Of a stretch of 64,000 nt of DNA, positions 17,888-63,549 are shown piece by piece (position 1 is the stretch's first letter; every line of letters starts with the position of its first letter). The notes beneath the pieces are model-generated. The model was given only the letters and a program-made list of their open reading frames with translations, was not told the origin of the DNA and did not search any database. A program made the position numbers and the translations under genes. Origin of the DNA: Ailanthus altissimus (lineage: Eukaryota > Streptophyta > Magnoliopsida > Sapindales > Simaroubaceae); NCBI GenBank assembly GCA_946807835.1, contig CAMPEX010000001.1:1503001-1567000 (forward strand), read 5' to 3'.

Positions 17888-20800
17888 TCAGACACACTTG
17901 GATGAGCCATTTTTTCCCAAGCCGACATGTTCGTTTTGTGTGATCAATATTGTTACAAACATGACATCATCGTTGCTTTGTCTGTTGTGTTTTCTTTTTC
18001 TTTCCTGTACCCTTTGTTTTAACAATTTTATCCATTTCTTGGCTTGCCAAACCGGCTCCAGGACAATAGTCCACACCTTCACTCTTTTTAGCCTTTTTGG
18101 TTATCATATGCACAACTTCCTAAGCTTTGTTATATGATTCAACTAATTTTGATGCATAGTGTATTAAGTTTCGACAGGTAATTGAAAGTGCACCAATACG
18201 AGCCACCTTACCTATTGTGGGTTCTCCCATAGATGAGTTCATTTGTGAACTTGCTATCTTTGTACGCACTGTCCACCTCCGTAATATCATGCATGGTGGT
18301 ATTTTAATCAAGTTTTTAGCCTTCATAACTGTAAAGGAATGGCTACAAGGGATTTCTTCGCTTTCTATTGTTTTGCATTGACACTTAATCATACTATTTG
18401 ATTCATGAAATATTACCTCCCAACTTTTATCCCCTCTTCTATATTTCCTAATGTCATAGACTCGACAAGAAGCATAAGGAACACAATTAAATATTTACAT
18501 GTTGCCTTCTTCCTTTAATACCACAAGGACATGGTTGAACACATTTTGTGTGAAAACTATCGCATCATGGTGCTCAAAATTTTTCTATAAATAAATTACT
18601 CCCACAGGCCTTATATGATTGGTTACGAAGTCATCCTCTGCCTCCAAATTCTGAGTTCGAGCAACCAAGCCTTCTATTTGTGTTACCAACTCATGCAGCT
18701 TCAATTTACTTCAAACATCCATTTAAGTAGGCATTCATGCTTTCACACTATTGTGTGTTTCTCATTCCCCCCAAAACTTTTCCTCTCAAATATGTCTCGG
18801 CCCACATTCGTCGATCCTTATATAATTTCTTAACCCATTCATTGTCGTGCAAAGCAAACCTTGTTACCATTTTTGTCTATTTCAAATTAAATTGGGTCTC
18901 ATCCATATCAGCAAGCATTATCTCTTTGAAAGCCATTATGAATGACGGCTCCCCAATATTGACTTATGCATTTCGCTCAAGATGCCAACAACATAAACGG
19001 TGGCATAAATCTAGAAATACCTTAGCGATTACACTGTGCTTGGTGTGATCTCCATATATGACAACGGTTGGTGGTTTTTTCCCTTTCATTACTATCAAAA
19101 AATTTCGTTATAGCCATATGTAAACCCTATCTGTCTCATTTGAGAGTAAAGCAACACCAAAAAATATATTACTTCTATGGTGATTGAGACAAAGAAACAT
19201 TACAAGGGGTTTATTGTAGGCATTGGTTCTGTAAGTTGAATCAAAAGAGAGGATATCGTTGAAGCATTGGTAAGCCGCTCGTATCCCAGAATCAGACCAA
19301 AATATATCTGTCATCCTGTTATTGGGGTCAACCATGTAGTAGTAAAAAATGTTGGGTGTAATATCTAATCCCTATTAGTAGTATTGACGTTTAGATTTTG
19401 GTATAGAGTAATGAAGTCACCGTAGAATTACCCGATTTTAACCTTATTAGAAATATTTCTTTATGGTCTGCGTGAGAGATATTAGACCTAATTTGATAAT
19501 TTCACACACGGTCGAAGCGTCAGATAACCCTAGAATAGTTTTAGAATTTTTGTCTATTGGCTTGGAAAAGAGAATTCTAATTTACTACATGAATTTTTAT
19601 TTAAGGGTTATGTATGGAACAAGCCTTTGTTGAGAAACACAACCCATATATTAGAGAATGGACCAATTAGAAACAATCTCAGGGATTGCCAAGTTAGAAA
19701 TTCTAGTTAGTTCATTGGACTATTCTAACTAGATAGTTACAAAGGAACCAATTACATACTTAGTTTCCAACTAATGGCAATTTAGAAATTTTAAGTTAGT
19801 TGAGGGGAAAATTGGTTATTTGGGAGAGCACTATAAATATGGTAGAAGTGTGTAGAAATTTCAAGTGATCAAAAGCAAACACTTAGAGCAAAAGAGAGCA
19901 AAGTTCGTCCAAGTGAGGGAGGGGCTGCTACAGTGACATTTCAATTTTTTTTCATGATTTTTCATGCTTAATCAAGCTATAAGAAGGTCAAGTATAAGTT
20001 CCTAAACTTAATTGAAGTCTCGATTAGTAAAAATCCAAGAAAAAGAGGTAAAAAAAGTATTGTTTTGTGAGATTGATATGTGAGCTTTCAAGATTGCTTT
20101 AATTGATGTTCTTGTGTGTATTCTTGGTTTAGATTGAGTTGAATTCTAGTGTGGAGCTTGAAGGAGTCACCAAGTGGAAGAAATTAGCAAGGTAAGAATT
20201 ATGGTTTTGGGTGATTGGAATGTAGAGACTTCAATTGGTTGTAATTAGGGTATTAGAATGAAATTGGCTTGATTTAGTGTATTTGGAACAAGAAATACAT
20301 AAAAGAAATGTGTTGGAACCTAGGGTGAAATTCTACCACATTAGGGAAGTTAGGGATTGAGTTGTGTTTTGGTTGAATTGTGATGTATAAATTGTGTCTT
20401 ATGTAAATTGAATGTATATGATTGATGGAAAAATCAAAATGAAGAAAAATGGGGCATAATTATCCATTTTGGAAAGGTAAAGGGCAATTATGTCCAACCG
20501 GAGTTATAGGGTGTTAAGAAATTTTCAGGGTGTCGGATGGTGAATTAAATAAGATTGAATGGCTCCGTAAATAAAAATCGGAAAGTAGTATCCATCCGGG
20601 CTTTGTATGCCGATTAGGGCGTTTAGTAGTTAAATGAGATTTAGCATTTGATTTGGTTCTAAATGTCATTTATGGCGCGTAGGTGAAGAAAATTGAAAGC
20701 AGTAACGGGAGCAGAAATTCAAAGCGAAATTGAGCGCGGAGCGGTTATAAGTGAAAATCTTTCATTTCTTTTATCTTTCGTTTATTATATTTTCGCATAA

Positions 20801-22870
20801 TAAAAATGTATGTTTTATGTGCTTTTAATGCATAAACATGATTTGTGATCTTTATATATATCCATAGATATGCTTTTACATGTTCGGTTTAAGAAACAAC
20901 TTTAAAATTACTGCATCCGTTTCAAATGCCATTGGTACCCTTAGATTATAGTGGTGGTGATTGTATTAGACCCAGCCGGTATATCCCGTACACATGGGCA
21001 GGTTATAGGGGGAGTGTCACTAACTCCGAAAAGTCGGGATGTTGAATCATATGAGTCGCTCTATATGTATGGGGTATTGTCTCGCTATATGTATGCGATG
21101 TAGGATTCCGCTGCATAGACAGTGAGATGTATTGAGATGTCACTATGGGTATTGCTAATTGAGGTACCCCGTGACCTATTCACGTGTGCGGTGCTAGTTG
21201 AGTCGCTGCGTGAGTATAGAGGTTTAGGGTTACCATTGGTACAGTTTAGAAAGAAAATGGCCGAGCGAGGACTTTACTAGTTTTCGATCTACCGATAGCA
21301 TATTATGCGTTTATATGTACATGGTAGTTATTATGTTGTACAGATTTTGGATATTATTTTCCAAAGATGAAATAAAACCCGCTCAGTAAGATTTCATCGG
21401 CATATGATGTTAGAAACTGTTTTACAACTTTATATCAGTTTTGGAAGCATGATTTATGCATGTCTTTTAGAATTTACTATCTATGCGTAATGTTATTTTA
21501 TTTAAAATTTTAAATGCACTCACTGAGCTCCTTTAGCTTACTTGTTTTATGTTTTATGTTTTCTAAACCCCTTTACCAAGTGTAGGTCTTGGTACGCCAG
21601 CTGCTGATTCTCCTATTGCTGATTAGTGGGCTAAATCTGAAGATTATTCTATTCTATGTAAATGTGCTAAATAACACTCTTTTTGCTTTCAGCATGGTAG
21701 TTATAGGCTTGTATATTGTACATATGCTTTGTATAACCAAGAAGAGTTTCGATATTTTGATGATCGTTTCACTCTTTTATCAGTATTTTAGTTTTATGAT
21801 CATAATGAAATTATTGAGTAGAGTTGGATTGTGTTAAAAAGGACCGGAGGTCCTATTTGGCAGTATTGAGAAGTGGTTTGGAAATAGAAGTGTAATTCTT
21901 TGCAGGTTTTGTACTGAATTTTCAGAAAAAGATGGGAAACTCTGTCTGTTTTTTTTAAAAATTAATATGTCATTTTCATATATATTCCAAGCTTTGTTTC
22001 AGTAATAGCAACCCCTAAAAAAGGGTTCGCCTCGCGGAATTTCTTAACTTACCCAATTATATTCTGAGGAACTTCTGTCGGGGTGTCTGGCAGGGTTGTT
22101 AGGATCTACTGTAGAGGGTCTCGAGCCGGGTCCTATTAGAGTGTTATTAGAGCACGATTTTTGAAGTTTTAGTTAAAATGCTTATTTTTAGAATGAGATT
22201 CTTGAAATTGCTAGGATCTACTGTAGAGGTCTCGGGTCGAGTCCTGTCACTGGGTCCACTACTTGTCTATAATGTAGCAAAGAAACACATGTTTAAAAGT
22301 CTGAGTCATATGTTTGCACACGTCAATCACTTGCCAAATTATTCTATAAATCTTTGGCTGTAAACCCAATGCCTGAATAGCCCCCTAACTGTAAAGTTAG
22401 AAAGTCATATATTTGTTTGGGTCTAACCCTAATTCGATATAATGCTATAGAATTGCTAGATTAACATCAGTTACACAATTATTAGACCGCAAGAATTGCA
22501 CTTGGGATGGCAATGTCAGTGCATGAGTGTGGGTATCACAAAATTGTTTGACTACCCATTCTCTTGTGTCTTGTTTCAATATGACTAGCATCGTTGCCTG
22601 ACATTTCACTCTTGTCAATGGCCTAGCCTTTCTCACACAATCTGTTTGTTCTCGGTAATATTTTTGTCTTGTTCCCTATCTAGAGCACACCTATCTGCGT
22701 CTTGATACCTCTCCCGACTTCGTTGCTTTTTGTATATCCTTTCTGACACTGAAGCCAATAGCGTGGGCATATTCTGTGTAGAATCGTTCAGCATTATCTA
22801 CACTGTCAAAAACTCAACCCACAACCTAGATGGATTCAGTGTAGTATTCTAGGTGTTATTCATTTATAGT
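17888..22870 (-). pseudogene. FAR1/FHY3-type Mutator (MULE) transposase, interrupted
   Basis: Domains in N to C order on the minus strand. A FAR1 DNA-binding domain at about 22830-22445 (AERFYTEYAHAIGFSVRKD; then KCQATMLVIL...REWVVKQF, HTHALTLPSQVQFLRS). The MULE catalytic core at 19340-18650 (DPNNRMTDIFWSDSGIRAAY, FDSTYRTNAYNKP, HRLCCWHLERNAQ, CESMNAYLNG). A SWIM zinc finger at 18392-18300 (CQCKTIESEEIPCSHSF). A basic C-terminal tail at 18082-17888. The protein would cut and join element ends via a DDE site. It is split by the solo LTR at 19357-22249. Internal stops (in the FAR1 domain and after GMRNTQ) show further decay. A domesticated FAR1 gene is possible in principle, but the decay and the convergent Ulp1-like gene favour a transposon. 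Confidence 0.8.
19357..22249 (+). mobile_element. Solo LTR, Tekay/Del-like chromovirus, 2.9 kb
   Basis: It starts TGTAATATC at 19357 and ends GAGTCCTGTCA at 22249. Flanks TTGGG (19352-19356) and CTGGG (22250-22254) form a 5-bp duplication with one mismatch. The phrase CACTCACTGAGCTCC near 21515 is typical of long chromovirus LTRs. With one duplication copy retained, the flanking transposase frame reads continuously into PNIFYYYMVDP, which supports the boundaries. A second diverged copy in reverse orientation spans 32142-48576. No internal domain is present. Confidence 0.8.
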
Positions 22871-26589: not shown

Positions 26590-27700
26590 CTAATTTGAAT
26601 GAGGAAGAAAATAAGAACATGATAAAACTGTTAAAATAGAATAAAGATATTTTCACCTAGTCTTACAAAGACATAATAGGGATAGATCCAAAAATAATTT
26701 GCCATAGCCTAAATATGGCTAACAATTTTCTTCCTTGTAAAGCAATAATAGGAAAGATTTGCTCCCAAAAAGAACAAAGTGATCAGTGAAAAAGTAGATA
26801 GGTTGCTTGGAATTGGGTACATCTAAAACATTCAATATCAAGACTGGGTATCAAATGTGGTCGTGGTAAAAAATAAGAATGTTAAATGGAGAGCCTATGT
26901 TTATTATAAGAATCTCAAGAAAAGTATGATCAAAATACTATTTTCCACTTCCAAAGATTGATCAAATGGTCGATGGTCACTGAATATGAAAGGTTGTCCT
27001 TCTTAGATGCATATAATGAGTATAATCAAAATAAAATGAATCAAGAAGATAAAGAAAAAAATAGGTTTTATTATAGAAAGGGGGATTTTTACAATAAAGT
27101 GATGCCGTTTGGTATAAAGAATATCAAATAACCTTCCAAAGATTAGTTCATAAGGTCTTTGGAAGGATGGTTTAGAAAATTATCGAGGCCTAAATGGATG
27201 ATAGGTAGTCAAAATGATAAAGGCAGGAGACCATTTGAAGGATTTACAAGAAGTGTTCAGTGTGCTCAAGAAGTACAAGATCCACTTAAATCCAACAAAA
27301 TACACCATTGGAGTTTCATCGGGAAATGTCTTGGGGCATGCACTTAGTGTTAAGGGAATCGAAGCCAACCCTTCCTAGTGATATAGTAACCAGCCTATAG
27401 CCATTTGTTCAATGGGGAGTGATATTGTACGGCGTCTACCAATAATGTTGCTGGTAGCAAAAGATTGATTTTATTCGCAACGACTTACTTAACTAAATCG
27501 GTAGAAGGGGAATCTATAACAATATCGCAAGATATAAACTTTACAAATTCCTCTAGAATAACATAATCATCAAATATAAAATGCCACAAACCAAAGTAGC
27601 AAATAATGGGAAGCAGTACCAAATATGGAATGTCATAAATTAAAGTCCACAAGATTCAACAAAAAAATTCCTCTCAAAGTTACCCACAAGGTAACAGATA
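26590..27700 (+). pseudogene. Tat-like gypsy pol remnant (RT fused by deletion to integrase)
   Basis: RT is recognised from LNEEENKNMIKLLK, SYKDIIGIDPKIICHSLN, YERLSFLDAYNEYNQNKMNQ, the VMPFG word and, out of frame, a segment ending LGHxxSVKGIEANP near 27360. The (A/W)S-x-D-x-x-GIDP-x-x-x-CH word is characteristic of the Tat/Ogre branch. Immediately after, integrase words appear: PFVQWGV near 27400 and FATTYLTKSVEGES near 27460. RNase H and part of RT, including the catalytic DD segment, appear deleted. Multiple stops make it non-functional. Confidence 0.7.
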
Positions 27701-31962: not shown

Positions 31963-32377
31963 TTTTTTCTTACCTGATTTTGGGTATGACTATTACTCTT
32001 CATTGTAAGAGTCTTGATTCAGGTGATCTTGAAATGTATTTATCTTAAACTGTTATTCATTTGATTTGTGTATCAAAGGTATTTAATGTAATATCTTGAT
32101 GATATGAAATGAAATTATTTTCTCAAAAAAATAAATAAAAAATGAAACAATCATCATAATATCGAAACCTCTTCTTATTTGTCCAAAACATATTCACAAA
32201 ATACACAAGTCTATAACTACTATGCAGAAAGCAAAAAGGTGCTACTTAGCACATTTACATTTACAAAATGATCATCAGACTTGACCTACTAATTAGTTGA
32301 GGAGAATCAGTAATTTGAGCACCGAGGCCTGCACTTGGAAGGGAGTTTAGAAAACATAAAACATAAAACAGGTGAAC

Positions 32378-33808
32378 TGACACGTCCAGAATATAGAAGT
32401 TATTCCCAAGTGCAGGATTGTCGAAGTAATAAATAACCCGATGAGAACGGGGTCGATCCACAGGGAAGTAGAATTAAAATTACAAATTATAAGCACTTTA
32501 AAGATAATTAATGCAGTATAAGATGTTTGCAAATATTATTTCAATTAACCAATTCAAATAAAAAGCTAAGGTTATGGAGATTCACTATTGGCATAAGAAA
32601 TAAGATTATATTTAATTTTTTTATAACTCAATTGGAATCCTCACACAAAGAAGGTTCCAACCGAAAAATATAGCAATTAAAGTTCATCATCATTTATATA
32701 TTAATTAGTATTTATTGTTTTTAATTATTATACACCAAATCTTATAAATGGGTTCAAGTATTTATTATGCCAATCTTTATATTTGTCTACAATAAATCAA
32801 GACTCCCACTTTACAAGAAAGGTTATATAAACCAAATCTTGTAAATGGTTTCAAGAATTTATTGTGCCAAGTATTAAGTTTGTCAATAATAAATCAAGAA
32901 TCACCACTTTAGAAGAAAGGGTATTAATTCTACAAACAAAATAAATACATCATATATAAATTTGCATAACTTAAAAATGAAGCATTAAATTCATGAATAA
33001 ATATTAAACATATCTTATTACCTTGCCAAGAGCTTCACCCTTTCACCTTAGCTTAAAAAAAATTATTTGGACATAATAAAACTAAATGAAAAGAAAAGAA
33101 ATGGAAGAAGAAATAACATGACTTAATAGTAAACAAGAGAAATAATAGTACAAGGAAATGGATACAAAGGAAAAGTATTTTGAACTAAATTCTAACTTTC
33201 TAATTACATTCCTTAGGCATAAACAAGCCACCTATTTATAGAAAAATATGGATAAATCGAGACAAATTTGGAGGGAACCACTTGGTTGATGAAAGTCAAG
33301 AATGGTGGCAAAATAATTTGCATTCATTATCACTTGGGTACCCACTTGATTATCCAATTTGGAATTGATGTGATCCGAATTAGCTGTCACTCAAAACATA
33401 AACGTTGTAGATAAGTCTCTTATCTTTCCAAATTGAGTGATCGCATACGTATTAGATACGTATTTCTATAGTTATGGGCCAAATACTGATAACTGTTCAA
33501 ACCAGGCCTGTACTGCAGATCAATTATGTTCTAGGCCAATTTTCACCCTCTAAACACTCGAATTTCCAATACTTTGTGAAATACAATATGTTAGCCCATT
33601 GAGTCAGCTCTGCACAAGATTAAGAATAACCTCAATTGGATCTTTAGGTAGAAAGTTATGCCCATTTTACCGAACCTGCCACAAAACAGTTATAAGATAA
33701 TTAAGTACAATATTGTAAACATACTTAAGTTAAGAAAATTAAATACACTAGTAATACAAAACAATCATGTAAAACTCTTATTAAATGTGTAATTTCAAGT
33801 GTTCATCA
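32378..33808 (-). repeat. 3' LTR of the gypsy element
   Basis: 1431 bp, TGACACGTCC to GTTCATCA on the + strand, near-identical to 42983-44412. It contains a TATA-like word at 33233-33240 on the minus strand. Confidence 0.95.
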
Positions 33809-33820
33809 CACCCCCCAACT
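33809..33820 (-). other. Polypurine tract
   Basis: On the minus strand AGTTGGGGGGTG lies immediately 5' of the 3' LTR (TGATGAAC). This is the expected site of plus-strand priming. Confidence 0.85.
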
Positions 33821-35228
33821 GGCTTATTGCTAGTCCCTAGCAATTCGAGCATAAATAAAATTTAAACACTACCTAAGTATTTCAAACAAAACGTCAGTTT
33901 AAAATCACAATCGCTATAAAGGTTATTTCAATCATAACTTCCAAAAATATTTTTGTATGTGTGTGAATTAAGCCAAAGCCTTCTTACCACAAACCACAAC
34001 ATATATAGCCTTAAAAATGTTCCAAGTAAAAGCCTCAACTCCATATCCTTACAGGTGAATAACTTGTTTAATGACTTAGGATTTCACTCATGGAGTTGGA
34101 AAACAGATAATCGCTCAAGAAAAAGTTACATTTAAGGACAGACAGACAAACTAACATTGATCCAAAGATAGAAAAATCAAATATTTAGAGTCAAACCATT
34201 ATTGCCAAATGCCAGCTTCAAGACTTTAATTATTTAATGCGAATCTTACGAATATAGAATTCGGTGATAAGATTGCTTCCTAATGACTTTAGTCTTCTAA
34301 AATTGAATGAAGACTTTATTGAACTGAATTGACTTCTTTTCTTTCTTTTTTTTTTTAAAAATTTTTTTTTACTCATTTTTTTTTCTTTTTTTGAAAGACA
34401 TAAGGAATCATTATAACATAAGAGCAATTTATCACCATAATACTTTTCTAATTTCTTTTTTATCCTTCAGCTAAGCAATCAAATCATTCATCATCCCAAA
34501 TAATGTCATTCCAAATAAAAATTAACTATTTCAAAAGATCAATGAAAGTTCGTAAGCTGTTATCTCAAACCTCTCCACTCACTCACAAAAGATATGTGAG
34601 TTTAGAAAATAATATGTATACTTAAACATGGAAATTCTCTTGGCTATATATATTGAATCATCCATCTTACCACAAGGCTTAGTAATGTTCTCAAGAAATA
34701 ATTTCAGAAGTTATTCTTTAGTAACCTAAATAGAGAAAGTGATTTAAACTAAACAATTTTGAAATCATACATCGATAGTAAAGTAAATTTATTTACGTAA
34801 GAGTTACCAAAAACTTAAGCAACAAACAATTATACATAAAATGCATTTAAAAATAAACCAATTAGAATGTGTTTCAAAAGTTTATAATGTACTCTTTATT
34901 CTGCCATTCTAGAACTAGAATGCGTCTCAAGAATACATAAATGAACATTTTACTCACGCCATTCATGATAATTTTTTTTTTTTACATAACAAAGTGATAA
35001 CAACAACAAAATAAAATAATTAACACTAACATTATATATCAACTATCCTCCCCCCAACCAGATTAAGACATTGTCCTCAATGTCAAAATATAGAAAGAGT
35101 AAAATATAGAAGATATCACCTGAAACATTTTTTATTAAAAATTAAACCTGAAACAAAATAAAACAAGCCACACAAAAAAATAAAACAAGCTACACAAAAA
35201 AGCTTAAAAATACATAGAAATAGATAGG
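33821..35228 (-). other. Noncoding internal region between LOG and the polypurine tract
   Basis: About 1.4 kb with no sustained frame on the element strand. A second purine tract, GGTTGGGGGGAGG (35047-35059, minus), stands next to CATTGAGGACAATGTC (35067-35082, minus). This pairing is commonly seen near the 3' end of Athila and Tat elements. A T-rich stretch lies at 34340-34390. Confidence 0.6.
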
Positions 35229-35882
35229 CTACAGACGAAGCGTCAAATCTATCCTGCGTTTTTTTTCACTGTTATCAGTATACCAATCTATCTGACTCAT
35301 TATTGGATCAGATAGAGGTGTAAAAGCTTGTAGTTCATCGAGTAACTGATCAACAGTTGAAGCAGAAATGAGGATCTGTCGTGCTGCAGATGAGACGAAT
35401 TGTTTTTCCACCGCATAGTCAAGAAAAGATAACAACCCATTATAAAAACCATCAACGTTTAACAAACCAATTGGTTTTTTATGGATTTGCAATTGTGCCC
35501 ATGAGACAATTTGAAAAATTTCCTCCAATGTTCCGAAACCTCCAGGTAGAGCTATGAAGGCATCAGCATTACGAAGCATAAAAGAAATTCGTTCATGCAT
35601 TGATGATACCTGTAACTCATCCCTAATTGTTTTTCCTACAATATCTCCAACAGCTAGAGCTTTTGGTATGATACCCAAAACTCGACTGCCATTATTTTGT
35701 GCAGCGGTTGCCACACGTCCCATTAATCCAAGACTACCTCCCCTATATACTAAATGAATATTGCGCTCAGCTAACATCTTACCAAGGGTTTCTGCTGCTT
35801 CTATAAACTCACTAGTTTTTCCAAGGCTGGATCTATAAAAGACACAAATTTTTGTGAATTTACGAGTTGATGATCCTTCCAT
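35229..35882 (-). CDS. LOG: LOG-type cytokinin riboside 5'-monophosphate phosphoribohydrolase, captured in the retroelement
   Basis: A 217-residue intact ORF. LOG enzymes remove ribose phosphate from cytokinin nucleotides, releasing active free-base cytokinin in one step. Seen here: the signature PGGFGTLEE (about residue 113), SSMHERIS, and LGLMG. The tail KKRRIDLTLRL resembles one clade of plant LOGs. Length fits the family (about 210-220). I chose ATG at 35882 because MEGSSTRKF aligns with plant LOG starts; an upstream ATG at 35945 would add 21 unrelated residues. Plant LOG genes normally have several introns; this copy has none, indicating capture through RNA. It lies inside the LTRs on the element strand, after the 182-residue ORF. 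Odd: two conserved nucleotide-binding words are altered, CGSS to YRSS and YGGGS to YRGGS. Each change is consistent with a single G-to-A, so activity may be reduced. Confidence 0.9.
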   Translation of the reverse strand: MEGSSTRKFTKICVFYRSSLGKTSEFIEAAETLGKMLAERNIHLVYRGGSLGLMGRVATAAQNNGSRVLGIIPKALAVGDIVGKTIRDELQVSSMHERISFMLRNADAFIALPGGFGTLEEIFQIVSWAQLQIHKKPIGLLNVDGFYNGLLSFLDYAVEKQFVSSAARQILISASTVDQLLDELQAFTPLSDPIMSQIDWYTDNSEKKRRIDLTLRL

Positions 35883-35947: not shown

Positions 35948-35955
35948 TATTTATA
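35948..35955 (-). promoter_or_regulatory. Candidate TATA box upstream of captured LOG
   Basis: The minus strand reads CTATAAATACA, with TATAAATA starting 73 bp before the chosen ATG. That is suitable spacing for a short leader. Farther upstream (35975-36100) a phrase around TCACATGG...GGCTT occurs twice, as a diverged tandem pair. Transcription from here is inferred only. Confidence 0.5.
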
Positions 35956-36239
35956 GAGCCAAAAGGTATTGCAAAGTTAAATCACATGGCTATTGGCTTG
36001 AAATACAAGATTCAACACCTTTTACCAATTTTCAATTTGTTAGCTAGAAAAGTCACATGGGTTGTCGGCTTAAAATGCAAAATTTTTAAAAAGGATTATA
36101 GGTGGTTGATTATTGAAAAGACGTTTGAGTTTGAAATGAAACATTTAAAAATAACAGCTATAGTAAAAATATACAAGTAGTTGTGATTGTGGCTCACATC
36201 TTTCTTTGATTTTACGTCCAATAACAGCTTAAACGCCCT

Positions 36240-36788
36240 CTATGGGTCGGGGATAGGCTTCCCATCCAATTTTCTTATAAATTGGCAAACAGGGTCTTTT
36301 AAAGTCAGATTCCCGAGACTGTACCGCTCATGTTCTTTTAGGAATATGTCCCATAATTCATGAATTGCAATATGCACATATCCATTAGGATGCATCTCAA
36401 GAGTCGATAAGATATTATCTAAAGACTCCTTACTCAGGCCATCCTTAATGAACCTAATTTTATCTTCACGATTTACAGACACCATTCCTAAAGTGCGGCA
36501 ACGTGTGTTGCAAGTCGTGCGTGCACACTTGTAACAAACATTTAATTGTTTTGCTCTTTGTTTTTTTGAAAAAGAGCTTTTACCTAAGCCAGGCATGTAG
36601 GAAATTAATGAGTCTGAAAATTCACCTGTCAATCTAACTTTGGCTTTAATTAACCAACGTAAATCAACAGGTATATTCATAATCATTAATAACCTTAATC
36701 TTTCACATCTTGCTTGGTAAATTTTCTTCAAAGAATTTTGAGGCAATGAGGGAAAACGCTTTTTCAAATTTTTTAGAATGTCATCCAT
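36240..36788 (-). CDS. 182-residue basic Cys-rich protein, viral nucleic-acid-binding-protein-like
   Basis: An intact ORF starting MDDILKNLKKRFPSL and ending KPIPDP, 214 bp after pol and about 0.36 kb before LOG on the same strand. Residues 50-75 (NIPVDLRWLI) precede a basic stretch GKSSFSKKQRAKQL, a tight cluster CYKCARTTCNTRC, and DKIRFIKDGLS. This order (basic RRAK-like arm, Cys-x2-Cys finger, second Cys pair, FI-x-x-G) resembles the small cysteine-rich nucleic-acid-binding proteins of carlaviruses, vitiviruses and allexiviruses. Several of those bind nucleic acid and suppress RNA silencing. The similarity was recognised by eye; a novel zinc-finger protein is the alternative. No signal peptide or membrane segment is seen, which argues against an env-like protein. 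Function in the element is unknown. Confidence 0.6.
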   Translation of the reverse strand: MDDILKNLKKRFPSLPQNSLKKIYQARCERLRLLMIMNIPVDLRWLIKAKVRLTGEFSDSLISYMPGLGKSSFSKKQRAKQLNVCYKCARTTCNTRCRTLGMVSVNREDKIRFIKDGLSKESLDNILSTLEMHPNGYVHIAIHELWDIFLKEHERYSLGNLTLKDPVCQFIRKLDGKPIPDP

Positions 36789-37002
36789 TTTTTTTTTTTA
36801 GAAAAGGGGAAAGAAGAGAAGATATCAGTAATTATGGAAAACTGACAAAACCGATTTGAAATATCACGGAGTACCGTTATCCGCCGCTTAACCGGGGTGC
36901 AAAACAAAACTTTAACAAAACTACTAAATTAACCTGCAAGTAAAAAAAAAATGTTAGAAGAAGAATAAATATATATAAATATGTAAATATATAAAACAAA
37001 GA

Positions 37003-39906
37003 TTAATTGGTCTCGTAACAAGGATCCGACAGGAACGTAAATTCTTCATGAAAAGCTTGGTTTTTTAGAAACGGCTTGAGTCTTTGCCCATTTACCTTAA
37101 ACACATTCCCATTTCTAGGATTTTCAATGTCAATTGTTCCATAAGGGTACACATGTTTCACAATAAAAGGGCCACTCCATCTTGATCTTAATTTTCCAGG
37201 GAATATGTGAAGTCGAGAATTATAAAGCAAAACCTTCTGACCAGTGTCAAATGTTTTTCTCTGAATTTTTTTATCATGAAAGGCTTTAATTTTAGTTTTA
37301 TGAATTTTTGAATTCTCATATGCATCATTTCTCAATTCTTCAAGTTCATTTATTTGTAATTTACGTATGTGTCCAACAGAATCAAGATTTTCATTGAAAG
37401 TTTTAATAGCCCAGTAGGCTTTATGCTCAAGTTCCACAGGTAAGTGACAAGGTTTTCCATAAACTATCCTATAGGGAGACATACCCAATGAAGTTTTAAA
37501 AGCAGTTCTATAAGCCCACAGTGCATCAATTAGTCTTAAAGACCAATCTTTGCGATTTGGGTTTACAGTTTTTTCTAAAATTTGTTTTATCTCCCTATTT
37601 GCTAATTCAACTTGTCCACTTGTCTGAGGATGATAAGGGGTGGCAACTTTATGAGTAATACCATATTTTTTCACTAATGTTTCAAATGGTCTATTACAAA
37701 AATGCTTACCCCCATCACTTATAATGGCTCGAGGGATTCCAAATCGACTTAAGATATTTTCTTTCAAATATTTCATGACTGTTTTATGGTCATTATGTCG
37801 ACATGGAATAGCCTCAATCCATTTTGAGACATAATCTACCGCAACTAAGATATACGTAAATCCAAATGATAACGAAAATGGTCCCATGAAATCTATCCCC
37901 CAACAATCAAAGATTTCAATAACAAGAATGGGGTTCAAAGGCATCACGTTTCGTTTTGAAATTGATCCCAACTTTTGACAATTTTCACAAGTTATACAAA
38001 ATGCATGTGTATCTTTAAATAAAGTGGGCCAATAAAATCCACACTGCAAGATTTTTGCAGCTGTTTTCTTTGATGAGAAATGTCCCCCACATGCTTCAGA
38101 ATGACAAAATTTAATAACTTTATTTACCTCATTGTCAGGTATGCATCTTCGAAATATTTGATCACGACAATATTTAAAGAGATAAGGATCATCCCAATAA
38201 AACTTTCTCACCTTCGTTAAAAATTTTCTTTTGTCTTGAGCATTCCATTGAGATGGCATTTCTCCTGTTACAAGAAAATTAACAATATTAGCATACCAGG
38301 ACATTGTAACAGTAGAAAATAAAAATTTATCGGGAAAAGAATCATTAATAGGTGTTATTTCTGTTGATGAATCTGATGTGAGTCTTGATAAGTGATGTGC
38401 AACAACATTCTCAGCTCCCTTCTTATCCTTGATAGTGATAATAAATTCTTGAAGCAATAGAATCCATTGAATCAGTCTTGGTTTTGCATCCTGTTTTGAC
38501 ATTAAGTACCTTACAGCAGCATGGTCAGTAAATACAATAGTTGAAGAACCAATTAAGTAAGAACGAAATTTGTCTAATGTAAATATTACAGCAGGTAGTT
38601 CTTTTTCAGTTGTTGTGTAATTCATTTGTGCACTGTTTAAAGTTCTACTAGCGTAATAAATTACATAGGATTTACCTTCCTTTCTTTGTCCTAATACAAC
38701 ACCAACAATGTAGTCACTAGCATCACACATAAGCTCAAAAGGTAAAGACCAGTCAGGAGATTGTATGATAGGAGCAGATGTTAAGAGGCCAATTAATTTT
38801 TCAAACGAATTTTGACACTCTTGAGTCCACTTAAATGATACATCTTTTACTAAGAGGTTACAAAGAGGTTTAGATATAGCACTAAAGTTTTTTATGAACC
38901 TCTTATAGAATCCAGCATGTCCTAAAAAGGATCGGACTTCTCTGACTGTTTTTGGTGGAGGCAAATGTGTAATGAGTTCGACTTTTGCCTTATCCACTTC
39001 AATTCCTTTAGAAGATACTATATGTCCCAAAACAATTCCAGAAGTAACCATGTAATGACATTTTTCCCAGTTCAATACAAGACTCTTTTCTTCACATCTT
39101 TTTAAGACCTTTTTTAAGTTTTCAAGACAATTATCAAAAGAATTTCCAAACACAGTTAAATCATCCATGAAAACTTCTAAATAATGCTCAATCATGTCAC
39201 TAAAAATGTTTAACATACATCTCTGAAATGTTGCTGGGGCATTACAAAGTCCAAAGGGCATTTTTCTAAAAGCAAAGGTTCCAAAAGGACATGTGAATGT
39301 AGTCTTTTCTTGGTCCTCTAGTGCTATAGGAATTTGATAATAGCCAGAGTAACCATCTAGAAAGCAATAGTAGAGATGTCCTGCTACTCTTTCTATAATC
39401 TGATCAAGGAATGGTAAAGGAAAATGGTTTTTTCTAGTGACCAAGTTCAATTTTCTATAATCTATGCACATCTTCCAACTAAATGAGACTCGAGTTGGTA
39501 TTAACTCACCTTTTTCATTTTCAATGACTGTGATTCCAGATTTTTTTGGTACTACCTGAGTAGGACTTACCCACTTACTATCTGAGATCGGATAGATGAT
39601 TCCTACTTCAAGTAATTTGAGAACTTCAGCTCTCACTACCTCTTTCATATGTGGATTTAATCTCCTTTGAGGTTGTTGGAAAGTTTTAGCATTATCCTCT
39701 AGGTGTATTCTATGTGTGCAAATCAAAGGATTAATACCATTTATGTCTTTTATAGTCCACCCAATTGCATTTTTATGCATTTTCAATAATTCAATCAACT
39801 TATCTTCTTGTTCACTTGTGAGTGTAGAAGCGATTACCACCGGGCAAGTTTGTTTCTCTCCAAGAAATGTATATTTCAGTCCTTCAGGCAGAGGTTTTAA
39901 CTCCAA
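37003..39906 (-). CDS. pol: Gypsy (Athila-like) pol: reverse transcriptase, RNase H, integrase
   Basis: An open frame of 967 codons. RT spans about residues 75-350: [18 protein letters not shown], and catalytic FMDD at 246-249 in place of the usual YxDD. RNase H spans 390-510 with D395, E434 and D461. The fourth acidic position (NVVADHLSR in relatives) is His504, which could impair template removal. Integrase follows: zinc motif H602, H609, C640, C643; core D672, D731, E767 in words [17 protein letters not shown] and [12 protein letters not shown]. It is separated from the protease frame by a single in-frame TAG at 39907-39909, most simply a CAG-to-TAG change, though readthrough is possible. 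The words [11 protein letters not shown] and [17 protein letters not shown] place it with Athila-like elements. It copies element RNA to DNA and inserts it. Confidence 0.93.
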
Positions 39907-40968
39907 CTATGAAATTTCGTTCTTTTTATCCTCATTTTCTCCCAATTCTTTAAACTTTAGTTTCCATCTTTTATTTTTAATCACCTGTGCACAGTCAAGT
40001 AAAGAACATATGTCAGAGATTTCAGGATCTAATTGTTTATTTGACTCAAATGAATTTATTAAACACATTTCTAAGGGATCGGTAGAACTCTCTTTTTGAA
40101 TATGATCCTCCACAATCGTTTCAATCATGTCACCTTCTTCACTTTCATTCTCCTCTTCATATGGGTGCTTACACATATTAAAAACATTGAGTTTAAGTGT
40201 CATGTTTCCAAATGAAAGCTTCATTACTCCATTCCTGCAATTAATCAAAGCGTTAAAAGTTGCTAAAAATGGACGACCTAAAATAACAGGTATCGGATTA
40301 CATCCTTTGACAGGTTCTGTGTCCAAGACGATAAAATCCATAGGATATATGAATTTATCAACTTGAACTAAGACATCCTCCACTGTCCCTCTTGGTACTT
40401 TTATTGATCTATCAGCAAGTAAAAGAGTTACAGATGTTGATTTTAACTCCCCGAGATTGAGCTGCTGATAAACTGAATACGGCAATAAATTCACACTAGC
40501 GCCAAAATCAAGTAAGGCTTGTTCAATTTTATGACTTCCAATAATACATGAAATTGTAGGACAACCAGGGTCTTTATATTTCAAAGAATTATTGTTCTGA
40601 AGAATGGCACTTACTTGTTCAGCTAAAAATGCTTTCTTTTTTACATTCAGTTTTCTTTTTACTGTGCATAAGTCTTTCAAAAAAATTTCATAAGATGGAA
40701 CCTGTTTAATAGCATCCAGTAAAGGAATATTAACTTTTACCTGTTTGAAGATTTCAAAATTTTCAGGATTGTGATTCATCTTCTTAGTATTACGTAATGC
40801 ATGAGGAAATGGGGGTGGAGGTGAGGGTTTAGTATTTTCTTCATTAAGTGTATGTTCAACACTTTCCTTACCCTTAGAGATTGATTCATCGCTTTCATGA
40901 GGTTCAGGAATTTCTTTTTCAACAATTTTACCACTCCGAAAAGTGATAACTGCTTTAACTTGATCCAT
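39907..40968 (-). pseudogene. Gypsy protease region (gag-pol middle part)
   Basis: A 353-codon frame in phase with pol but closed by TAG at 39907-39909. It holds an aspartic protease: active-site word LLDFGASVNLLP (Asp154), LLADRSIKVPRGTVEDVLV, and ILGRPFL at 229-235. The enzyme matures Gag and Pol in the particle and normally acts as a dimer. The upstream join to gag is out of frame, so this segment depends on repair of gag or complementation. Asp-Phe-Gly rather than Asp-Thr/Ser-Gly is a variation at the active site. Confidence 0.8.
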
Positions 40969-42434
40969 GTGTTGGCTTCCTGAACTACATGCATTTGAGC
41001 TATGTTGTCATTTGGGGTTTGGCTATGGTTGAGAAGGATATTTTCCTTTCTCATGAATGTTCAGTGCAGATGCAAATTTAGCAAGAGTATCTTTCAAATC
41101 AGCAAATGTTTGAGCATTTTGAGAATTAACAGACTCTTGTTTTTCAATGAATGTATACAAGGTTTCTTCAAGATTTTTCCTAGGAGGTGGGACATATGGT
41201 GCATAACCTTAATGATTTTGAAAGTTTTGGTGTGGTTGGAAAGGTGGTTGCGAAGCCTGTGCTTGAGTGTCATTCCTCCAACTAAAATTTGGGTGATTTC
41301 GCCATCCAGGATTATAGTTTTGTGAATATGGGTTATTGTTTGACCATTTGAACGTGTTTAAAACATTGGCTTGTTCATGGAGACATTCCCTAAATGCAGG
41401 CAAAGTTGGGCAATCATTGGTAGGGTGATCATGGGTTTTACAAATGTGACACACAATTTCTTGAACAGTTTTTATTTGACCACTTTTTTCATTTCTAAGG
41501 TTTCGACTTTTCTAGCAAGGGATGCTAATTTGGCTTGAAGGTCATGGTCTTCCTTAAGATGATAAATACCCCCACTAGATGTAGTGGTTTGATTTTTGCT
41601 AGGTGCCTCACAGGTACCAGCAGTGTCCCAATTTTGAGCATTTTCTGCTAGTAAGTCAAGATAGCTCATTGCCTCTTCTGGGTCTTTTTCCTCAAATGTT
41701 CCATTACACATCATTTCTACCATTTGCCTAACTTGGGGTGTTAAGCCCTCATAGAAATTTGAGACTACTCTCCATGTTTCAAAACCATGATGGGGATAGG
41801 TATTAAGTAATTCTTTATACCTTTCCCAATATTGGTAAAGGGTCTCTCTTGGTTTTTGGGCAAAAGTGGTGATTTGTCTTTTGAAAGAATTTGTTCTATG
41901 GGAGGGAAAAAACTTTTTCAGGAATTGTTGTTGCATCTCATCCCATAAAGAAATGGATCCTGGCCTAAGGTTTTGTAGCCATGTTTTAGCTTTATCTTTT
42001 AAAGAAAAAGGGAAAAGCTTAAGTCGAATTGTGTTCATGCTACAATTTTGATCATTATACGTGTTACACACTTCTTCAAATTCTCTTAGATGTAGATAAG
42101 GGTTCTCTGCATCTAAGCCATGAAAAGTGGGTAAAAGTTGGATAATGTCTGGCTTAAAATTAAAATGCGTTGCATCCGGTGGAAAAATTAAGCAAGATGG
42201 TGCACCGGTTCGTGTAGGGTTCATATAGTCTCTAAGTGTCCTAGGTCGGTTATGGTCATTATGTTGGGACTGATTGTCCCCTAGGTCTATGAGTCCCTCA
42301 ATTTGATTTTTGCTCATGGAGTTACTTGGTGAAGAATGAGAAGATGAAGGAGAATCTAACAAATTATCAAAGGAAGTTTTGAAATTACCTTTTACTAAAC
42401 GATGAGAATTAGGATCTCGAAACCAACCGTTCAT
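40969..42434 (-). pseudogene. Gypsy gag with frameshift and stop
   Basis: ATG at 42434 begins MNGWFRDPNSHRLVKGNF; codons farther upstream are leader. The Retrotrans_gag domain is clear: FHGLDAENPYLHLREFEEVC, LKLFPFSLKDKAKTWLQNL, LWDEMQQQFLKKFFP, YWERYKELLNTYPHHGFETW. Near 41484 a run of A residues seems one base short and moves the frame to a stop at 41472. In the shifted frame a CCHC zinc knuckle follows (CHICKTHDHPTNDC, about 41452), then Asn/Pro/Gln-rich sequence with a TAA at 41209 where Gln is likely. GYAPYVPPPRKNLEETLY follows. Gag would package the RNA; this copy cannot make full-length Gag without frameshift correction. Confidence 0.88.
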
Positions 42435-42600
42435 AAAAAGAAACAAAACAAAATACAATAACAATAAATAATACAAATAAAATATTGAACACAGGTAAAT
42501 AAAATAAAATATTACACACAAGTAAATAAAATATGTAAAACTAAAAGTAAAATAAAGATAAATAATTAGAAGTTAGATTAGTGATGTTAGATTATATAAT

Positions 42601-42915: not shown

Positions 42916-42958
42916 AATAAACAAACAAATAATAACAAAATAAAATATTAACGTTACC

Positions 42959-42976
42959 TCCCCGGCAACGGCGCCA
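42959..42976 (-). other. Primer-binding site, tRNA-Asp
   Basis: The minus strand reads TGGCGCCGTTGCCGGGGA, six bases after the 5' LTR. From memory of plant tRNA ends, it is complementary over all 18 bases to the 3' end of tRNA-Asp (GUC). It primes minus-strand DNA synthesis. Confidence 0.9.
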
Positions 42977-42982
42977 AAAACT

Positions 42983-44412
42983 TGACACGTCCAGAATATA
43001 GAAGTTATTCCCAAGTGCAGGATTGTCGAAGTAATAAATAACCCGATGAGAACGGGGTCGATCCACAGGGAAGTAGAATTAAAATTACAAATTATAAACA
43101 CTTTAAAGATAATTAATGCAGTATAAGATGTTTGCAAATATTATTTCAATTAACCAATTCAAATAAAAAGCTAAGGTTATGGAGATTCACTCTTGGCATA
43201 AGAAATAAGAATATATTTAATTTTTTTATAACTCAATTGGAATCCTCACACAAAGAAGGTTCCAACCGAAAAATATAGCAATTAAAGTTCATCATCATTT
43301 ATATATTAATTAGTATTTATTGTTTTTAATTATTATACACCAAATCTTATAAATGGGTTCAAGTATTTATTATGCCAATCTTTATATTTGTCTACAATAA
43401 ATCAAGACTCCCACTTTACAAGAAAGGTTATATAAACCAAATCTTGTAAATGGTTTCAAGAATTTATTGTGCCAAGTATTAAGTTTGTCAATAATAAATC
43501 AAGAATCACCACTTTAGAAGAAAGAGTATTAATTCTACAAACAAAATAAATACATCATATATAAATTTGCATAACTTAAAAATGAAGCATTAAATTCATG
43601 AATAAATATTAAACATATCTTATTACCTTGCCAAGAGCTTCACCCTTTCACCTTAGCTTAAACAAAATTATTTGGACATAATAAAACTAAATGAAAAGAA
43701 AAGAAATGGAAGAAGAAATAACATGACTTAATAGTAAACAAGAGAAATAATAGTACAAGGAAATGGATACAAAGGAAAAGTATTTTGAACTAAATTCTAA
43801 CTTTCTAATTACATTCCTTAGGCATAAACAAGCCACCTATTTATAGAAAAATATGGATAAATCGAGACAAATTTAGAGGGAACCACTTGGTTGATGAAAG
43901 TCAAGAATGGTGGCAAAATAATTTGCATTCATTATCACTTGGGCACCCACTTGATTATCCAATTTGGAATTGATGTGATCCAAATTAGCTGTCACTCAAA
44001 ACATAAAAGTTGTAGATAAGTCTCTTATCTTTCCAAATTGAGTGATCTCATATGTATTAGATACGTATTTCTATAGTTATAGGCCAAATACTGATAACTG
44101 TTCAAATTGGGCCTGTACTGCAGATCAATTATGTTCTAGGCCAATTTCACCCTCTAAACACTCGAATTTACAATGCTTTGTGAAATAAAATATGTTAGCC
44201 CATTGAGTCAGCTCTGTACAGGATTAAGAATCACCTCAATTGGATCTTTAAGTAGAAAGTTATGCCTATTTTACCGAACCTGCCACAAAACAGTTATAAG
44301 ATAATTAAGTACAATATTGTAAACATACTTAAGTTAAGAAAATTAAATACACTAGTAATACAAAACAATCATGTAAAACTCTTATTAAATGTGTAATTTC
44401 AAGTGTTCATCA
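42983..44412 (-). repeat. 5' LTR of the gypsy element
   Basis: 1430 bp and near-identical to 32378-33808. It includes a TATA-like word (TATAAATA on the minus strand at 43838-43845), about 570 bp from the LTR start in element orientation. This is a plausible promoter for the genomic RNA. Confidence 0.95.
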
Positions 44413-46780
44413 TAAACTAAAGGAGCTCAGTGAGTGCACTTATGATTTTCAGTTAAAATAAATAAAATTCTGCATAAATATTAAATTCTAAAAAATGCAT
44501 AAAACATGCTTCTAAAACTATTATAAAATTGTAAAATGGTTTCTAACGTCATATGCTGATAAAATCTTACCGAACGGGTTTCATTTATATCTTCTATAAA
44601 CAATATCCAGAATCTGTAAAACATAATAACTAAATTGTACACATATAAATACGTAATATGCATTCGGTAGCTCAGAAACTATTAAAACCTTCGCTTGACC
44701 ATTTTCTTTCTAAGTTGCACCAATGGTAACCCTAAAGCTCCATACTCATACAGCGACTAAACTTGCACCGCACAAAACTAGTGAAACGATCATCATAATA
44801 TCGAAACCTCTTCTTATTTGTCCAAAACATATTTACAAAACACATAAGTCTATAACTTCTATGCAGAAAGCAAAAAGGTACTACTTAGCACATTTACATC
44901 TATAAAATGATCGTCAGATTGGGCCACTAATTAGTCGTAGGAGAATCAGCAACTTGTGCACCGAGGCCTGCACCTAGAGGGGGTCAGAAAACATAAAACA
45001 CAAAACGAGTGAGCTAAAGGAGCTCAGTGAGTGCATTTAAGATTTCCAATAAACTAAAATTCTGCATAGATATTAAATTTTAAAAGACATACATAAAATA
45101 TGCTTTTAAATTTTTTATAAAACTGTAAAATGGTTTCTAATATCATATGCTGATGAAATCTTACCAAGCGGGTTTTATTTACATCTTCGAAAAACAATAT
45201 CCAAAATCTGTAAGACATAATAGCTAGCATGTACATATATAAATATGTTATGTGCGTTCGATAGCTCGAAAACTATTAAAGCCGTCGTTCGACCATTTTC
45301 TTTCTAAACTGTACCAATGGTAACCTTAAAGCTCTATACTCACATAGCGACTTGTTGTGTGTTTTCTATAACACAATTTAGCATAAGTGCACGTTGTCGC
45401 AACAAGTAATATAAGATGAGAAAAGTGTCGATCCCACAGAGAATGATTTGTCTTTTCTAGTTTAAGTACTGAAATGGTGTCTTTCTACTATTATCCAGAA
45501 AATGATTTAATGTATGAGATTAAACTACTCAAGTAAAAGAACAACTTAATTATGCTAAGTGATAAACTAAATTACCAACAAGTTAAATTCAATATGAGAA
45601 ATCCTAAGATTACAAACTATCCCCCATTATGCAAATAAATTCAGCAAAATCTCTTTCAGGTCTATTGGTTCTCAACTTGATATATTGACCAAAACACTCA
45701 ACACATCACAAGCCTCTTTTGCAGGTCAAGCGAATATATTCTATCCATTCAAATATCTATATGTCTATGATAAATAAATTGAACAAAATTCATTAAGCAC
45801 AAGTTTTATGAGCCATACATGCCTTATGAGTATATGTCTATCTCATATGAAACTCAAGTGTACTACACTATGATCATGCATCAATATGCTTAAGACTGAA
45901 TACCTAAATGCCTTTGTCAAGTTTATTTAAGCATTTCTAGATCAATTTAACTACTGGCCAAGTAATCAAATAGCATTAAGCACAAGCACAATGAATATAT
46001 CAAAAGCTGAATTAATACCATAAAAGAGAGAGCTAAAATCAATCACATAATGAGTTCAATGATGTAATCCTAGATTAATGAAATTAGCTCATCATTAAAC
46101 TACACAATCTTGAAGCTAATTCCATCAATACATGTAAACTAAACATCTTACAACAAGTAAAGAATCAAAGCAAAGAAGACATCCCTATCAAATGTCTTTG
46201 ATGTTGAAGCTTGCTTTCCTCCTCTTTGATTTCTCCAAACTTAGAAGTTAGGTGTTTTTTTGTGTTTCCAGCTGCTGTCCCAACTGGAGTCCCCTCCAAA
46301 ATGTAACTTTTGAGCAAATATATAGGTAAGAGCACGGAATTAGGGCGCACTTAGGGTTACTTTTGGGTTTCCTGATTTTCAGCAACCTGTCAACTTTTTT
46401 TGTCCAGGTCCCGGTGCCGCGGCATTGAGATTCAATGCCGCGGCGCTCACTTTCTGCAATTGGCGCCGCGGCGCTGAAATCCAATGCTGCGGCACTGCAC
46501 TGTAGCAAAATAGTACTGTTGCAACAGTGGTACTGTAGCAACAGTGGCTCCATTTGCAACAGTGCCTCCATTTGTATTTTTATCTCTAATGCTCCCATTT
46601 GCGTCCGTTTTCCGGTATTTTTGCTCCGATAATGCTTAAACCTATAAAACAACATTAATATGCATAAATAGCTAAATTATTGAGATAAATTGAACAAATA
46701 TCAAGTTAGGAAGATAAAATAGTTTATACAATTACGCCTTATCACGACTCAACTAGCATCACACAATGTGAGTAGGTCAC
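44413..46780 (-). repeat. ~600-bp tandem duplication inside the old Tekay-like LTR
   Basis: The segment from GTGCGGTGCAAGTTTAGTCG-type sequence to the ATGATGATCGTTTCAC end occurs twice in succession. The first copy runs 46775 to about 44785, broken by a solo LTR. The second runs about 44784 to 44413 and continues at 32377-32142, broken by the full-length gypsy element. The + copy at 19357-22249 has it once. Confidence 0.7.
45353..46744 (-). mobile_element. Solo LTR, TGATAAGG gypsy family, 1392 bp
   Basis: The perfect duplication CGACT lies at 45348-45352 and 46745-46749. On the element strand it starts TGATAAGGCG and ends CACAACA. A GC-rich patch with repeated GCCGCGGC words lies at 46410-46500. 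No internal sequence is present. It is inserted in the duplicated Tekay-like LTR. Confidence 0.9.
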
Positions 46781-48576
46781 AGAGCGTCTCAACTAGCAAC
46801 ACCCACTTTGACATCTCATTGGCTATATAGCTGAATCCTACATCGCCTACATATAGCGAGACAATACCCCGTACACATAGGTGACTCACATGACTCGACG
46901 ACCTAACTTTTTGAAGTTAGTAACACACCCCCAATACTTGCCCATATGTACGGGATATACCAACTGGGTCTTAAATCATCACCACAACTATAAATCTAAT
47001 GGTATCAATGGCCTTTGAAACTAATTTGGTAGTTTTAAAACTGTTTCTTAAATCGAACATGTAAATGCATAACTATGGATATATATCAAAATCGTAAATC
47101 ATATTTATGCATTAAAAGCACATAAAACATATAATTTCAATATGTAAACATTAAACAATAGATAAACCATGACAGATTTTCACTCACCAACCGCTCCGAG
47201 CTCGACTCTCCTCCGAACTTTTACTTCCTTTACCGGTCTCAATTTTCTTCACCTATACGCCATAAATGACATTTAGAACCTTTACAATCGCTAAAATTTC
47301 AATTAACTAATAAGCGACCTAATCGGCTTACAAAGTTTAGATGGATACCACTTTTTGATTTTTATTTACGAAGTCATTCAATCTTATCTAATTCACTATG
47401 CGACGCCCTGAAAATTGTTAAACACCCTATAAATTAAGTTTGACATAATTGCCCTTCACCTTACCAAAATAGACAATTAGGTCCTATTTTCTTCATTTTT
47501 GATTTTCCATCAACCATATACATCTCATTGACACAAGGAATCATTCATATACGACAATTTAACTAAAACACAATTCAACCCTAAAAATCTCTAATTGGCC
47601 AAAATTTCCATCTTCACCTAACACATTGCTTTTCTCAATTTCTTGTTCCAATGATATTCAAATCAAGTCAATTTAATTTTAATGCCCTAATAACATCCAA
47701 TTGAAGTTTCTACAATAATTACACCAAACCCTTATTCTTACCTTATCAATTCCTTTACTTTGATGAGTTCTTTAAACTCCACACTTGAATTCAACTCAAC
47801 CTACATCAATAATTTACACCAAAAACATAAATTGAAGTGATCTTGAAAAATCATAACCACCATCACTAGATAATATTTTTCTTACCTCTTTTTCTTAGGT
47901 TTTCACTAATGGAAGCTTCAATTGATCTTATGAACTTGTATTTGATTTTATTTTGGCTTGATCAAGCATGAAAACTCATAAAGAAGCCTTGGGTTTTACT
48001 GTAGCAGCCTCCCATTCACCTTGGCCGAAATCCTCTCTTTTTGCTCTAAACATGTTATGTTTTTAACTTAGCCAAAATTTTACACACTTCCTCCTTATAT
48101 AGTATTCTTCCAAAAGTCCACTTTGCCCCTCAACTAACTCAAAATTTCTAAATTGTCATTGGTTCAAAATGGAAGGATTTAATTGGTTCCTTTCTAACTA
48201 TTTAGCTAGAATAGTCAAAGGAACTAACTAGACATCCAACATGGCAATCCATGAACTTGTCTCTAATTGGCTCATTTTCTAACATATGGATTGTGTTTCT
48301 TAACAAAGGCTTGTTAAATGCATAACCCTTAAATGAAAATTCATGTATTAAATTGAAATTTCATTTTCCAAGCCAATAGAGAAAATTTTCAAAAATATTC
48401 CATGACTGTCCGACGCTCCGACTGAGTGTGAAATTATCAATTTAGGTCTAATACCTCTCACGTGCACTATAAAAAAAAATTACTAATAGGGTTGGAATTG
48501 GGTATCCCTACGGTGTCTTTATCGCTTTCTACCGAAATCTAGACACTTATACTACTAATAGGGATCGGATATTACA

Positions 48577-63547: not shown

Positions 63548-63549
63548 AT

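Follow-up and report, generated by a model that had tools for sequence, protein, structure and literature searches.

The window analysed here, a stretch of DNA of 64,000 nucleotides, contains a young, internally broken copy of a multicopy Ty3/Gypsy LTR retrotransposon which carries two additional genes between its integrase and its 3' LTR, one specifying a LOG (LONELY GUY) protein, an enzyme type that activates cytokinin, and the other a zinc-finger protein of the Viral_NABP family, which comprises nucleic-acid-binding proteins (NABPs) of plant viruses. The two genes are linked in this genome, LOGs of this type form a single clade in which the LOG motifs are conserved, and the window's own LOG has lost two glycines. 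The presence of LOG in such elements was already known; the viral-type NABP neighbour is apparently new. We moderately favour the view that this is an Athila-type element with an NABP and LOG cassette in the env position, that its LOG derives from one probably old capture from a plant, and that the cassette counters silencing or alters transcription and also releases cytokinin. The cytokinin step taken alone, as judged from the sequence, we regard as about evenly balanced.

Structure and age of the insertion

All five ORFs of at least 170 aa in the 64-kb window belong to one minus-strand element, the features of which are given below in the order of the element.

44413..44417, no strand: target-site duplication, copy 1 (GTTTA on the element strand)
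42983..44412, minus strand: 5' LTR, 1430 nt, TG...CA ends, with promoter-like CTATAAATA at 43846
42959..42976, minus strand: primer binding site TGGCGCCGTTGCCGGGGA, 3' of the 5' LTR
42952..42960, minus strand: candidate 5' splice donor GAG/GTAACG at the primer binding site (GT at 42957-42956), predicted, of moderate quality
41472..42521, minus strand: gag, capsid part (PF03732)
41511-41212, minus strand: gag zinc knuckle, in a frame differing from that of the capsid part, with in-frame stops after it
39907..40968, minus strand: aspartic protease part of pol (PF13650)
37003..39906, minus strand: RT-RNaseH-integrase, with one in-frame stop between the protease part and the RT part
36934..36978, minus strand: predicted 3' splice site just past integrase (branch point CTAAC, T-rich tract, TTGCAG/G)
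36240..36788, minus strand: NABP gene, 182 aa, between integrase and LOG (Viral_NABP, PF05515)
35948..35956, minus strand: CTATAAATA, predicted internal LOG promoter (TATA box), 74 nt upstream of the LOG ATG
35229..35882, minus strand: LOG gene, 217 aa, open and intron-free, with C16Y, G17R and G47R relative to most relatives
33809..33819, minus strand: polypurine-like tract GTTGGGGGGTG, adjoining the 3' LTR
32378..33808, minus strand: 3' LTR, 1431 nt, TG...CA ends, with CTATAAATA at 33241
32373..32377, no strand: target-site duplication, copy 2 (GTTCA, one mismatch)

A first-pass annotation of this DNA had described a young element with near-identical LTRs, and this is borne out by the TG...CA ends, the target-site duplication and the LTR pair itself, which is identical at 1407 of 1430 compared columns (98.4%), the 23 differences being 15 transitions and 8 transversions (K2P 0.0163). 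Substitution rates per site and year range from 1.3e-8 to 4e-9, at which the LTR divergence corresponds to an insertion age of about 0.6 to 2 million years. A 5-bp duplication of the target site (GTTTA/GTTCA, 4/5 identical) flanks the element, and the uninterrupted insertion site is visible in a related repeat near 21536-21541. An artefact of assembly or nesting can be set aside with near certainty in view of the target-site duplication, the LTR pairs and the many independent insertions on many contigs.

The same annotation had noted a broken gag, and indeed the capsid and zinc knuckle parts are out of frame and in-frame stops flank the protease part on both sides. Pol is interrupted in addition to gag.

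Several other repeats were seen in the window. A second polypurine-like tract, GGTTGGGGGGAGG, lies beside an inverted repeat, GACATTGAGGACAATGTC, 3' of LOG (35043-35084, minus strand) and 1.2 kb short of the true 3' LTR. An older repeat is present in inverted copies, approximately 79-82% identical, at 19357-21773 and 44780-48576, and the element sits in one of them. A direct repeat pair (53557-54005 and 63549-64000, 85% identical) perhaps represents the LTRs of an older element cut at the window end. There is also a short direct-repeat array at 15773-16933 with units 77-85% alike, and degenerate reverse transcriptase fragments in two frames occur at 26997-27369 on the plus strand.

Lineage assignment

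The domain order protease, RT-RNaseH, integrase is that of Ty3/Gypsy elements. The primer binding site TGGCGCCGTTGCCGGGGA is of a type which we take to be tRNA-Asp. The scanned ORFs contain one RNase H only, no second RNase H region being found in them, and an additional RNase H marks Tat, not Athila, in the passages of PMC6317226 drawn on here. The Athila ORF-1 domain PF03078 is absent from the five ORFs scanned; the same source found it in just 16% of Athila elements (PMC6317226), and it is hence not defining. The single RNase H region, the layout and the primer binding site point to Athila rather than Tat.

The LOG gene

The frame of 217 codons which had been placed, intronless and on the element strand, between integrase and the polypurine tract is confirmed at 35229-35882 (minus strand). 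With 136.9 bits against PF03641 and 214 bits against its best solved relative, Arabidopsis At2g37210, it is not a chance frame. Arg 98 and Glu 121, which we take to be catalytic, are retained together with the motif PGGFGTLEE; both PF03641 and PGGxGTxxE are thus present, and the predicted model of the protein has a pLDDT of 84.

The glycine-rich loop GGGxxGLMG is not intact and reads RGGSLGLMG. Among the LOGs compared, Gly 17 is present in 119/120 element-type, 120/120 plant and 77/80 bacterial proteins, and Gly 47 in 116/120, 120/120 and 80/80, respectively, both sets of 120 being the best-scoring matches of longer lists. With arginine in place of two almost invariant glycines, the window LOG is probably inactive as an enzyme despite its open frame. 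The gene had been called intact, which holds for the frame and fails for G17 and G47. Departures of this kind are not unusual. In 62 columns a single residue accounts for at least 95% of the sequences, and the window LOG deviates from it in two of them; among its best 120 relatives, 47 show no such deviation, 31 show one, 25 show two and 17 show three or more.

At residues 16-17, 72 of the 74 full-length copies in the genome read CG, and YR occurs in the window copy alone. Gly 47 is found in 67 of the 74 and Arg 47 in six, the carriers of the latter being the window copy, L082-L085 and one more among L111-L155; the G47R variant may have spread by copying rather than arising after each insertion. 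G-to-A and C-to-T changes are in excess among the genome copies (87 of 112 LOG differences), and the changes in the window LOG appear to fit that excess, as one would expect of methylated, silenced DNA.

The NABP gene

The gene between integrase and LOG (36240-36788) was missed in the first-pass annotation. Its product scores 26.2 bits against PF05515 (cut-off 23), the match covering residues 38-123 of 182, and 17.9 bits against Carla_C4, which is under the cut-off of 20.9. When 20 members of the family were scanned at E 0.01, Viral_NABP was found in 18, Carla_C4 in 19 and, weakly, SHQ1 in two. In the window protein a CxxCx4Cx3C finger comes after a basic stretch; among the best 120 of 388 relatives the finger is present in 96 and the basic motif in 87, and the sources named there include Xanthoceras, Acer, Populus and Rhamnella (Rosales). 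Its structure prediction is poor (pLDDT 53), and the NABP profile gave no match to the PDB. Scans of IMG/VR with NABP and LOG, both as single proteins and as alignments, revealed no relatives.

The arrangement of a basic stretch and then a Cys-rich finger, and the Pfam families Viral_NABP and Carla_C4, are features in common with the cysteine-rich or NABP proteins of carlaviruses, allexiviruses and mandariviruses (PMC12172455). As described in the passages of that paper used here, the viral proteins combine a zinc finger with a nuclear localisation signal; several of them suppress silencing, and the one from chrysanthemum virus B acts in addition as a transcription factor inducing hyperplasia (PMC12172455). 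Unlike these, the NABP of the element sits in an LTR retrotransposon.

Copies in the host genome

A search of the genome (939,062,666 bases in 37 contigs) with LOG as query gave 6256 first-look candidates, and the scoring of these yielded at least 150 LOG matches at 95-100% identity. Among the 150 scored, 118 are without a stop and 32 have one. We read 75 of the 150 copies, namely 30 loci including the window's own and 45 more. In 74 of the 75 NABP lies 359-362 nt upstream of LOG on the same strand; in the exception, L110, the match to the element stops between NABP and LOG. LOG is gap-free and full length in 74 of the 75 and open in 59; among the 62 gap-free, full-length copies of NABP the frame is open in 52. 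In three of three further copies LTR pairs lay where predicted, being 99.93, 99.03 and 98.68% identical (divergence 0.0007, 0.0098 and 0.0133). The first-pass annotation had asked whether other copies also carry LOG, a gene confined to one copy being what would refute its reading; the answer is in its favour, the gene being no one-off, and its multiplication together with the element is supported.

Singleton variants are near neutral in both genes, with 50 nonsynonymous, 24 synonymous and six stop changes in LOG (74 copies) and 59, 16 and four, respectively, in NABP (62 copies). The within-genome dN/dS of 0.25 for LOG (30 copies) and 0.42 for NABP (26 copies) is not taken as a sign of selection, since the copies were chosen for their similarity in LOG and the recent variation is close to neutral.

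One might argue from the near-neutral recent LOG variants, from the 32 of 150 copies with stops and from the probable death of the window LOG that LOG is a neutral passenger from which the element gains nothing. This appears distinctly unlikely: inserted, silenced copies should decay whether or not the gene is used, LOG has a constant position next to NABP in 74 of 75 copies, and LOGs of this type form one clade across distant plants which has kept its catalytic motifs and its length (217 aa in 75 and 216 aa in 31 of the best 120 relatives).

Putative expression signals

In the 520 nt that follow the 5' LTR, the candidate donor in the leader is the sole site scoring at least 6 of 9, and the predicted acceptor lies approximately 145 nt before the NABP ATG. 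With a strict acceptor motif the site at 36934 is the only one in the window on both strands. A looser definition gives seven window sites on both strands, three of which are in the element: 42541 (before gag) and 36934 on the element strand, and 40650 on the opposite strand. TTGCAGG occurs at the acceptor place in 70 of the 75 copies read.

On the element strand CTATAAATA occurs once per LTR and once before LOG, as against 0.0011 per 100 nt in a shuffled model. There are 12 occurrences of this 9-mer in the whole window on both strands, so position rather than rarity is the argument for it. At the LOG promoter place TATAAATA is present in 75/75 copies, preceded by C in 68 and T in seven. The copies being close relatives, conservation of the TATA box and acceptor among them is weak evidence. 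Derivation of the LOG promoter by copying from the LTR was rejected, as there is no meaningful similarity beyond a 10-base core.

Origin and relatives of LOG

A broad tree was made with 36 element-type LOGs (35 from the best 120 matches to the window LOG, plus the window LOG itself), 23 plant and five bacterial LOGs, and a more careful one with 20, 13 and two, respectively; the bacterial sequences came from 80 LOG loci of a prokaryote genome scan, all kept records of which were bacterial and which served as outgroup. The label "element" was given to the best matches of the window LOG before the trees were made, flanking DNA having been seen for few. The plant LOGs were the best 120 of 7998 from one LOG3-type query, plus LOG8, so that other LOG subfamilies are hardly sampled. 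In the broad tree, which came with long-branch warnings, each label occupies one side of a branch; in the careful tree all 20 element-type LOGs are set apart from the others by a branch with support 99/97. Grouping of element-type LOGs with LOG8 gave a p-AU of 0.0858 in an AU test in which the sampling was mainly LOG3-type.

Members of the element-type clade are named for Xanthoceras, Populus, Reevesia, Diplodiscus and Paulownia. Since Paulownia is an asterid and Reevesia a malvid, the clade spans rosids and an asterid, and a single clade with members from such distant plants suggests that the capture is old and the insertion alone young: LOG was probably captured once, long ago, and then passed on by vertical descent or later horizontal spread. 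The first-pass annotation had proposed that this element captured a spliced LOG transcript. Capture of such a transcript is consistent with the absence of introns and with a plant-like sequence; capture by this young element is not supported, given the one clade (99/97) and the probable age of the event.

Among element-type LOGs of 200-235 aa, the window's included, 117/117 score higher against plant LOGs (the 120 and LOG8) than against the 80 bacterial loci, with a mean margin of 39 bits and a minimum of 18. Plant host LOG genes are split by introns, and an intronless LOG which is nearer to plant than to bacterial LOGs is consistent with capture at the RNA level. A bacterial donor would account for the lack of introns without RNA capture, and the tree alone, being rooted on bacteria by choice, leaves a non-plant donor possible, the element-type, plant and bacterial LOGs forming three separate groups in it. 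With every one of the 117 nearer to plants, and by at least 18 bits, we consider a bacterial source very improbable and retain a plant one.

The window LOG has the domain and catalytic motif in common with the plant host LOG3 and LOG8 (2a33, 1ydh) and is approximately 48-50% identical to the nearest plant LOGs compared. Unlike these, the element-type LOGs constitute their own clade and have a basic C-terminal tail, and the LOG of the window's family is intronless. The lysine/arginine-rich tail, KKRRxDLxLRL, is common to element-type LOGs and absent from the five host LOG ends compared, and columns 208 and 215 also differ between the two. In the best 120 element-type relatives R98 is found in 113, E121 in 117 and G47 in 116.

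An element origin is observed for the window family, and for Xanthoceras P0123, in which LOG is fused with element sequence, it follows from the fusion. Two NABP and LOG pairs on contigs of equal size (P0009 and P0196, 8723 nt; P0006 and P0239, 4511 nt) point the same way, as do 27 of the best 120 LOG relatives, which come from distinct loci of Reevesia pubescens, a pattern to be expected of a repeat. For the remaining members of the clade we infer such an origin from the clade itself.

Relation to known elements

Steinbauerova et al. in 2011 reportedly described two Athila-like elements with similarity to LOGL4. According to the passages of PMC9289625 drawn on here, a YgdH domain, as in LONELY GUY, occurs in Gypsy consensus sequences of Citrus sinensis, C. 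clementina and, in the unfiltered set, Populus trichocarpa, which that paper finds in agreement with the 2011 study. The statement in the first-pass annotation that no described retroelement carries LOG is thus contradicted by the Citrus and Populus elements in print (PMC9289625). Gypsy/Athila-type elements with YgdH or LOGL4-like extra ORFs are, like that of the window, eudicot Ty3/Gypsy elements with a LOG-like gene. What goes beyond them here, and finds no mention in those passages of the text of PMC9289625, is the NABP neighbour, the promoter and splice signals, the scale of the copy number and the one origin across distant plants. A literature search covering accessible text, including parts of PMC9289625, PMC6317226, PMC11728184 (Athila extra ORFs) and PMC7264820, found no report of an NABP partner in retroelements.

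Orchid Gypsy elements that encode a functional m6A demethylase of the AlkB type (PMC9289625) are also Ty3 elements with an enzyme gene beyond gag-pol; the enzyme and the plants are different. AlkB is found in flexiviruses as well (PMC9289625), the group in which NABP occurs. By analogy, the occurrence of NABP in both settings, together with the AlkB case, suggests that genes have passed between Ty3 elements and RNA viruses of plants.

Possible function of the cassette

We envisage that NABP would be made from a spliced RNA joining the leader donor to the acceptor at 36934, and that LOG would either use a TATA promoter of its own or be expressed as a later cistron. Where a copy is competent, NABP might dampen silencing or alter transcription, and LOG would free cytokinin bases from ribotides; the local cytokinin could then hold cells dividing, so that new copies would be made and inherited. 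A bolder proposal, to which we give rather less than an even chance, is that of a two-gene host-manipulation cassette in the env position, partly common with plant RNA viruses, which combines a silencing suppressor or transcription factor with a cytokinin enzyme under its own promoter and which has been kept through much of eudicot evolution; mobile DNA would then provide a growth hormone in favour of its own inheritance.

LOG might instead be kept for its protein and not for cytokinin, either as a general nucleotide hydrolase or as a structural or RNA-associated partner of NABP, with the tail KKRRxDLxLRL as the new part. The tail and columns 208 and 215, which set element-type LOGs apart from the five host LOG ends, are in keeping with this, as is the recurrence of R47 in six of 74 copies. 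Retention of R98, PGGxGTxxE and most of the loop glycines speaks against it, and we hold it to be fairly unlikely. Should the cassette work, a transposable element would supply the last step of cytokinin activation along with a viral-type counter-defence, and the extra genes of plant retrotransposons would gain direct, testable functions.

Since proteins of the element-type clade are publicly named as host LOG genes, surveys of the LOG family may count retrotransposon genes, an example being Populus P0159 ("LOGL10"), which falls in that clade. Public annotations that list element-type LOGs as host genes comprise Populus P0159 and P0188 (LOGL10) and Xanthoceras P0122, P0123 and P0125, some of the models being fused or doubled.
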